From assembly GCA_022614955.1 (NCBI GenBank), contig JAKEHP010000218.1, positions 1 to 41,330 on the forward strand: a stretch of 41,330 nucleotides of DNA, written 5' to 3'. Below, piece by piece: positions 4,194 to 41,194 of the stretch. The translations under genes were made by a program, and so were the position numbers. The stretch's first letter is position 1; the number at the start of each line of letters is the position of its first letter. This DNA comes from Candidatus Methylomirabilota bacterium. GTDB lineage: Bacteria > Methylomirabilota > Methylomirabilia > Methylomirabilales > JACPAU01. The notes beneath the pieces are model-generated. The model was not told the origin of the DNA. It worked only from the letters and a program-made list of their open reading frames with translations, and searched no databases.

Positions 4194-4248
4194 GCTCCCC
4201 AGCGCCTCCCCCGGAACAGATGTTTCCGCTGTCCCCCCCGCCCCCTGG

Positions 4249-5022
4249 CTAGGCGGGGGCGGGGTCGCGGACACGGTAACTCCGCACCCCCCACAGGGAC
4301 AGCGCGCAAAGTCCGACGGCGGCCGCCCAGATGTGGTCGGCACTCACCAGGCCCCCAATCCAGATCGCATCCGCCTGGACCGATGCCGTCAGCCCTCGCA
4401 AGACGGCATACCCCGTGGCATACACGAGCGCGAGTTGGCCCTCGAAGCGTTGCCGACCCCGGAGGGTCATGAGGAGGCCGAACAGGGCGAGATCCCCGAT
4501 CGCCTCCTACACCTGGACGGGATGGAGCTGCACGTGGGGCGGCGCCAGGCCGTTCGGGTCGCTGTAGGTCACCCCCCAGGGAAGAGTGGTCGGAACTCCA
4601 TACGCTTCGCCGTCAAGGAAGCTGCCCAGGCGGCCGAATGCCTGCCCGAGGATGAGGCCGGGGGCAAGAACGTCCGCGAACCGCCAGAACCCGATCCTAC
4701 GCCTCCGGGTGAAGAGGATCGCCGCGACGGTCCCGCCGAGGAGGGCCCCGCAGAGGGCCATCCCCCCTTGCCAGCGCGTGAGAATCTGAACCGGATGCCG
4801 CCCATACCAGGCCGGGTCGAGGAGAAGCACCTCGTAGAGGTGGGCACCGGCCACGCCGCCGAGAAGCCCCCAGAGGGAAAAGTCGTGCACCAGGTCCGGC
4901 TCGAGGCCTTTCCTCCGCGCTTCGGCCGCGGCCACGCGGGTGCCAACGAAGAAGGCAAGGATCACCAGGACACCCCAGGACCTGATGCTCAGCGGGCCGA
5001 GTTGGAACAGCACCGGATACAT
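4249..5022 (-). pseudogene. lgt: Lgt-like prolipoprotein diacylglyceryl transferase interrupted by an in-frame TAG
   Basis: MYPVLFQLGPLSIRSWGVLV...GQAFGRLGSFLDGEAYGVPTTLPWGVTYSDPNGLAPPHVQLHPVQV-TAG-EAIGDLALFGLLMTLRGRQRFEGQLALVYATGYAVLRG... The same frame continues past TAG (4507-4509) to the family-like C-terminus ending at 4249. Confidence 0.75.
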
Positions 5023-5055: not shown

Positions 5056-5724
5056 TCACTCGTCAGTCGCCTGGGCCCCAAAACCGGCCTGCCTCACGGC
5101 GCGCACCATATCCCCAACCCCAACCCTCTTCTTATCGTACTGGACCCGAGCCTTCCCGCTCTCAAAGCTCACTTCAGCCTTGCCGACTCCGGGCAGCCCC
5201 TCCAGGGCTGCTTCCACGATCGTGGGTCAGGTACCTCAGGTCATGCCCTCGATCCGGAGCCAGGCCGTTGCCTCGGTGGAGGCGTGCTGGCGCTGAGGAG
5301 GAGCCGCCGTCTCTTGCGGCGCCATCCCCGGCATGACATCGGCGCCCCCGTATCGGGCGATGAGTGATGCCGTGTATCCCGGAAAGGCGGTCAGGGCAGT
5401 GGCGGCCACCAGCACGACCGTCGAAGTAATCAGGAGAGCCAGATTCAACCGCCCTGCCGCCATACGGCAGGCCAGGCGCTCGCACCGCCGCCTCTCACGA
5501 AAATAGAGGGCATAGCCGAGCGCCACCCCGGCAATGCCGATCGGGATAAGAATGGGGCTGTACTGCATGGTGGTTACCATGAAGGCACCTGTCCCGAGGC
5601 CCAGCACGACCACGAGGAGCGGGAGCAGACAGCAGACCGACGAGATGGTCGCAGCCAGGTTGCTGACGATCCCCGCTTTCAGATTGGAGATTCCCACGGT
5701 CTCCCGCCTTCTCCTTATGGGCAC
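5056..5724 (-). CDS. MerT-MerP fusion (mercury transporter plus HMA domain), candidate selenoprotein with two in-frame UGA (UxxU)
   Basis: MerT-like TMs with SSVCCLLP and CERLAC. After TEATAWLRIEGMT come TGA (5236-5238), GGT ACC, TGA (5227-5229), then in the same frame PTIVEAALEGLPGVGKAEVSFESGKARVQYDKKRVGVGDMVRAVRQAGFGAQATDE and TGA (5056-5058). This is a full HMA domain with GMTCxxC read as GMT-U-GT-U. Confidence 0.85.
5193..5211 (-). promoter_or_regulatory. Candidate bacterial SECIS hairpin
   Basis: Minus-strand RNA GCAGCCC-UGGAG-GGGCUGC: 7 bp perfect stem, 5-nt loop with G at loop position 2. The loop starts 22 nt after the second UGA and 31 nt after the first, compatible with known bSECIS spacing. 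Not folded computationally. Confidence 0.5.
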
Positions 5725-40794: not shown

Positions 40795-41194
40795 GGCCGG
40801 AGTGGGCCTGTAAGCCGGATTCTGTACGGGCCGGAGCCCGTGGTGGTCATCCCTCTAGGCCCGGCGTTGCCGCCGCGCTCCAGCGGCCTACCCGGGGGCT
40901 CGGGCGGGCCACCCTCCCGCCGGCGCCTTGCGGCCCCGGCAGCGCCCCCCTATTTGGCCTTGCTCCAGGTGGGGTCTGCCGAGCCAGCCTGTCACCAGGC
41001 TGCTGGTGCGCTCTTACCGCACCATTTCACCCTTACCGAGCGGCCTTGCGGCGGCCCGGCGGTGTGTTTCTGTGGCACTGTCCTCGGGGTCACCCCCGCT
41101 GGGCGTTACCCAGCACCCCGCCCTGTGGAGTCCGGACTTTCCTCCCGCGGCCCCGCAGGGGACCGCCGGCGACCACCCGACCCACTCCGGCCGC
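40795..41194 (-). ncRNA. rnpB: RNase P RNA (bacterial type A)
   Basis: Minus strand contains GGAGGAAAGTCCGGACTCC near the 5' end and CAGAATCCGGCTTACAGGCCCACTCCGGCC at the 3' end. P1 pairing GGCCGGAGTGGG/CCCACTCCGGCC is visible at the two boundaries. Confidence 0.93.

Follow-up and report, generated by a model that had tools for sequence, protein, structure and literature searches.

The window (the whole stretch of DNA analysed, 41,330 nucleotides) comes from a Methylomirabilota bacterium of soil or groundwater, and its minus strand carries a gene in which a MerT-like membrane protein is joined to an HMA metal-binding domain (Table 1). The gene starts with GTG at 5724 and stops with TGA at 5058-5056. 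Two further TGA codons lie in frame, and they stand exactly where the HMA site would have its two metal-ligand cysteines. When TGA is read as U, the frame gives ...WLRIEGMT-U163-GT-U166-PTIVEAALEGLPGVGKAEVSFESGKARVQYDKKRVGVGDMVRAVRQAGFGAQATDE*, in which Sec166 is followed by proline, and with 56 sense codons between the second TGA and the stop it is open to the end of the HMA domain. The MerT and HMA regions form a true fusion, because no further stop lies between both parts. The plain ORF of the window ends the protein at GMT*, so the carrier domain is missing from routine annotation. An earlier note on this DNA, made from the letters alone, had described this ending, the TGAs at both ligand codons and about 57 open codons beyond them; its description is accurate, and only the minus strand had been omitted.

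Table 1. Features of the MerT-HMA locus (positions in the window)
Feature	Position	Strand	Evidence or remark
MerT-HMA fusion gene, 222 residues, two internal TGA predicted to be read as Sec	5056..5724	-	
MerT-like membrane part, three hydrophobic segments	5401..5670	-	PF02411 21.3 bits, below gathering cut-off 32.9; hydropathy
HMA (MerP/CopZ-type) metal-binding domain, GMT-U-GT-U	5080..5259	-	PF00403 51.5 bits; NF041115 84.5 bits; MerP structures 1afi/1osd
First in-frame TGA, putative Sec163	5236..5238	-	TGA in 28/28 homologous sequences
Second in-frame TGA, putative Sec166	5227..5229	-	TGA in 28/28 homologous sequences
Weaker upstream hairpin (CCAC/GTGG), between second UGA and main hairpin	5214..5225	-	Role uncertain
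Candidate bSECIS hairpin, 8 bp stem, GGA apical loop 5203-5201	5193..5211	-	-14.8 kcal/mol
lgt, downstream of MerT-HMA gene, 33 nt gap	4507..5022	-	PF01790 154 bits

Hydropathy places the three hydrophobic segments of the MerT part at residues 23-41, 57-75 and 95-113. A CC pair lies in the first segment, still encoded by Cys codons as the note had stated, and a C-x4-C motif lies in the basic loop that joins the second segment to the third (RERRRCERLACRMAAGR). This is the structural layout of MerT, with three transmembrane helices, vicinal cysteines in helix 1 and two cysteines in the loop, and MerT is still recognisable in spite of a score below the gathering value. Among 21 MerT sequences, the CC pair is kept in 18 rows (2 rows are gapped) and the two loop cysteines in 20 and 21 rows, indicating that Sec would be confined to the HMA site. 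According to the positive-inside rule, the loop is probably cytoplasmic and the C terminus with the HMA domain periplasmic.

The HMA domain, scored with C for U, is clearly above the gathering score of PF00403 (51.5 vs 24.8 bits), in agreement with its first assignment as a MerP/HMA-type domain, and its structural matches are metal carriers or metal-transporting ATPases by name. MerT and HMA are separate in most of the relatives, where the HMA protein mostly has its own gene with a signal peptide; among the relatives compared, a clear MerT-HMA fusion is found only in the window and in G071 (L019).

No mer gene adjoins the fusion gene in the window, where its neighbours are instead a YncE-like propeller protein upstream and lgt downstream, the latter possibly co-transcribed with it. 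The lgt frame (4240-5022, minus strand) contains an in-frame TAG near 4507-4509, beyond which 85 more residues are open. This TAG stands exactly at the tyrosine of the Lgt motif HPVQV-Y-E, and it is undecided whether it reflects an error, decay or something else. Elsewhere in the window, a bacterial class A RNase P RNA lies at 40795-41188 on the minus strand.

Homologues of the window protein were searched in six frames, with stops read through, in 194 relatives. Both TGAs are found at the same columns in 28 distinct sequences after duplicate removal, from about 27 genomes including that of the window, and the other 26 or so genomes are nearly all Methylomirabilota/Rokubacteria. By direct reading, nearly all double-TGA matches continue from GMTUxxUP into normal HMA sequence, that is, the UGA codons are conserved in other organisms together with the sequence downstream, and in homologues with cysteine they align with Cys. 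An exact DNA pattern for the double TGA site was also run against the GTDB representatives. The matches come mainly from Rokubacteria, Methylomirabilota and NC10 records, a few are from Deltaproteobacteria and one is from a member of the Desulfobacterales, and those in unrelated taxa are mostly without HMA sequence beyond the TGAs. The recurrence of the double TGA with HMA continuation is far beyond chance.

Mixed states were also discovered in related HMA proteins, namely CxxU in L110 and L122 and UxxC in L091, L123 and L124, a pattern that an exchange between Sec and Cys at either ligand would be expected to leave. Thus U/U, U/C and C/U, which the note had proposed to look for in the homologue columns, all occur. 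In close pairs, pN is well below pS after the TGAs, which indicates purifying selection; for example, pN is 0.018 and pS 0.194 downstream of the TGAs for L020/L033 (omega 0.08). No close copy of the window gene was found in the three genus mates searched, and a DNA search against genus mates, meant to date the arrival of the gene by synteny, returned short matches only.

If the TGAs were real stops, in a decayed MerT-HMA gene or through an assembly error, MerT would be made alone. The plain ORF that ends at GMT* is consistent with this, and so are two fragments in relatives (L022 and L036) that carry additional damage downstream of the TGAs. However, the same double TGA occurs in about 27 independent genomes with the HMA sequence conserved beyond it, the close pairs are under purifying selection, and a SECIS-type hairpin and the full Sec machinery are present (see below), which makes real stops very improbable. 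A pseudogene or sequencing error was rejected on the recurrence in independent genomes together with the hairpin. The note had argued that two chance nonsense mutations are less likely than Sec and had named sequencing or assembly error as a way to be wrong; its argument gains from TGAs that recur beyond this locus and from the selection downstream, and recurrence in independent genomes counters the error.

Several variants of the site were observed in passing. The gene L109 (G190 contig C64) encodes a CxxC HMA protein (GMVCESCPPKIKKALEGLEGVK) and retains the ALEGL codons that make up the hairpin in the Sec genes; it is possibly a Sec-to-Cys reversion with a fossil SECIS. In L047 (G029 contig C100), the TGAs are one codon further apart, giving GMTUPVAUPP (UxxxU). 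A further UxxU HMA-like family (GMTUPIUAYGVQKAL...) is represented by L065 and cluster C15 (L147, L148, L150), and the C15 genes adjoin a P-type ATPase gene and a UxxU MerP-like gene.

A bacterial SECIS (bSECIS) element has been modelled as a stem of 4-16 bp with a loop of 3-9 nt, a G within the first two bases of the loop, a spacing of 16-37 nt and an MFE of -7.5 or lower (PMC13188914). The note had suggested a search for such an element after each TGA, and a conserved, covarying SECIS-like hairpin was found. Its 3 nt loop begins at a distance of 32 nt from the first UGA and of 23 nt from the second, and with 8 bp and -14.8 kcal/mol this one hairpin agrees with the model at either UGA. When 22 sequences were aligned from the first UGA onwards, columns 30-35 and 39-44 were paired in 99.2% of cells, with compensatory changes at two pairs and a loop of GG(A/C) or GU(U), and sliding the pairing partners abolishes the pairing. 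Of the 28 Sec sequences, 27 have the GG/GU loop and 26 have all six pairs, while all six pairs are present in only 1 of 12 Cys-type HMA control genes. The hairpin is also more stable than synonymous recodings from the same codon pool (mean z -1.83; -2.61 in the window). The weaker upstream hairpin exists in most sequences, with 84.5% of cells paired and no compensatory change. We considered a two-hairpin layout with one SECIS per UGA and rejected it, since the upstream hairpin is less conserved, and a single shared hairpin is preferred.

All four components of Sec insertion (selC, selA, selB and selD), another check that had been proposed, are encoded in the host genome (2.8 Mb; 95.5% complete, 8.3% contaminated). 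The tRNA-Sec scores 76.8 bits with anticodon tca (UCA) and is confirmed by ARAGORN, SelB scores 376 bits on the same contig, SelA 580 bits, and SelD 390 bits, itself with one TGA. The penicillin-binding protein on the window contig shares 84% identity with its counterpart in genus mate G003 and no more than 59% with those outside the genus, indicating that the contig belongs to the host genome and is not contaminant-like. Across genomes with UxxU genes, tRNA-Sec is above the family cut-off, which admits some tRNA-like matches, in 20 of 24. It is common across the class, so this co-occurrence does not discriminate, and we dropped it as evidence.

A genome-wide change of the code, with TGA as Trp or Cys, would also keep the frame open when TGA is sense, which is its only support. 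We rejected it: the MerT-HMA gene itself terminates in TGA, the Sec machinery is complete (SelA, SelB, SelD and a tRNA-Sec with anticodon UCA), and Trp at both HMA ligands would be senseless. From the sequence evidence above, the Sec reading of both TGAs is well supported, and the metal-binding tip very probably carries two Sec in place of two Cys. The host encodes a second HMA selenoprotein of CxxU type (L110 on contig C306; GMVCAAUPV), which has a signal peptide; the gene directly downstream encodes a CcdA-like membrane protein.

As for the metal, mer genes are adjacent to the homologous genes in relatives. For example, the order in L151 is ArsR, a MerB-like/SaoL-like protein (63.6 bits to PF03243), a glutaredoxin with PGUGAC, MerT, a UxxU HMA and a flavoprotein disulfide reductase. 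L155 contains MerR, a Sec-glutaredoxin, a zinc-ribbon protein, MerF above its cut-off, MerT, a UxxU HMA with signal peptide (111.5 bits to NF041115, above the cut-off of 95) and a rhodanese. This rhodanese-like protein, directly downstream of the UxxU HMA gene, has an in-frame TGA of its own (CHDYQUDMS). When the neighbourhoods of 20 relatives were summarized by sequence clustering, MerB-like genes were found in 9, ArsR in 7 and MerR-type genes in 5. The host itself has MerB on another contig (107.6 bits), and MerB is found in 0 of 14 control genomes. A cluster on host contig C207 (L176) comprises a Sec-glutaredoxin (TPTUASC), MerB, a zinc-ribbon protein with CPTUAG and a TlpA-like thioredoxin. 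MerA was not found above the cut-off in the host genome, where the best match reaches 370 bits (cut-off 454) and is without the C-terminal Cys pair.

The mercury-type neighbours of relatives, the MerT cysteines and the host MerB favour capture of a soft metal, most likely Hg(II). We therefore read the gene as a MerT-like transporter with a UxxU HMA selenoprotein domain that may capture and relay a soft metal, most likely Hg(II), at a probability of about three in four. A selenoprotein whose natural metal is copper(I), another soft ion or a metalloid, acting as a copper importer or as the partner of an exporter, is a less likely option. In sequence, CopZ and Cu-ATPases have HMA domains that are just as close, the window has cupredoxin-like (by eye only) and CcdA-like genes within 5 kb, and the host has no MerA. 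It is at odds with the MerT-type membrane part and its conserved CC and loop cysteines, with the MerB-like, MerF and MerR-type neighbours in many relatives, and with MerB adjoining a Sec-glutaredoxin in the host. Improbable, too, is redox chemistry at the UxxU site, in which a diselenide switch takes the place of a metal ligand. Oxidoreductases are most of the bacterial selenoproteins (PMC9312934), Sec-glutaredoxin genes adjoin the relatives' genes and TlpA-like genes are nearby, but the Sec pair stands exactly at the HMA metal ligands, the MerT cysteines are retained, and the solved relatives that were matched have the names of metal carriers or metal-transporting ATPases.

In the preferred reading, Hg(II) capture and relay, the protein would be an inner-membrane transporter of MerT type that carries, C-terminally and in the periplasm, an HMA domain with Sec as both metal ligands (GMT-U-x-x-U). 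Both UGAs would be decoded by SelB with Sec-tRNA, one hairpin serving for the two. The selenolate pair could take up Hg(II), or a different soft metal ion, on the periplasmic side and pass it to the CC pair in MerT helix 1, from where it would move on to the C-x4-C loop facing the cytoplasm. Other factors would then deal with the imported metal; MerB may first cleave organomercurials, and Sec-glutaredoxin may reduce or buffer the metal. What becomes of imported mercury is the weakest part of this reading, in a host without MerA above the cut-off.

The note had cautioned that proteins of this kind may already have been reported, and indeed UxxU metal-binding proteins and MerT/CopZ fusion selenoproteins are already NCBIfam families. 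NF041115 (UxxU_metal_bind) is, like the window domain, an HMA domain with both ligands Sec, and the window protein shares its UxxU at the metal site. With C in place of U, the window domain reaches 84.5 bits (72.8 bits when searched in six frames), below the cut-off that the split-gene relative L155 passes, and differs in being fused to MerT and without its own signal peptide. NF045683 (MerT_CopZ_Se) also has MerT followed by HMA and is Sec-containing by its name. However, the window protein scores 57.9 bits against a cut-off of 375, and 0 of 194 relatives pass, indicating a different subfamily. By score it is a formal member of neither family, and by sequence it is plainly of the same kind.

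Among the remaining relatives, the MerTP fusion NF033556 shares architecture and motif (80.1 bits, below the cut-off of 180); this known family has Cys at the metal site, where the window protein would carry Sec. MerP (TIGR02052; 1afi, 1osd), a periplasmic Hg(II) carrier, shares the HMA fold and a GMTCxxC-type site, whereas in the window both Cys are apparently replaced by Sec, the domain is fused to MerT, and the score is 51.4 bits against a cut-off of 92.55. There is also a likeness to the SAO system and its UXX-star glutaredoxins: a SaoL-like gene (NF040728, 88.5 bits vs cut-off 140) and Sec-glutaredoxins adjoin the relatives' UxxU genes, but the transport genes seen there are of MerT/MerF type, where the SAO system has an ABC transporter. 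In the literature, NF041115 UxxU is listed as 'putative mercuric reductase' with 2 Sec in a 2026 review, which also includes a putative mercuric transport protein with C/SxxU (PMC13188914), and MerP was among the marine selenoproteins of a 2008 survey (PMC2398784). In the literature covered, which leaves the key Haft papers outside, we found no description of the co-location of MerB-like and Sec-glutaredoxin genes or of one hairpin for two UGAs.

In a wider and more tentative view, to which we give somewhat less than an even chance, Methylomirabilota and some Deltaproteobacteria may possess a selenium version of mercury detoxification, with a bis-selenolate as primary Hg ligand, a UxxU carrier fused to or beside MerT, Sec-glutaredoxin, a MerB-like lyase, sometimes MerF, and one SECIS decoding two UGAs 9 nt apart. 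A selenol pair should bind Hg(II) tighter than a thiol pair. If this is true, a natural UxxU carrier would use selenium as a metal ligand and not for redox catalysis. Such roles of selenium are still to be worked out according to the 2026 review (PMC13188914). The gene would also offer a clean case of one SECIS hairpin that serves two nearby UGA codons.
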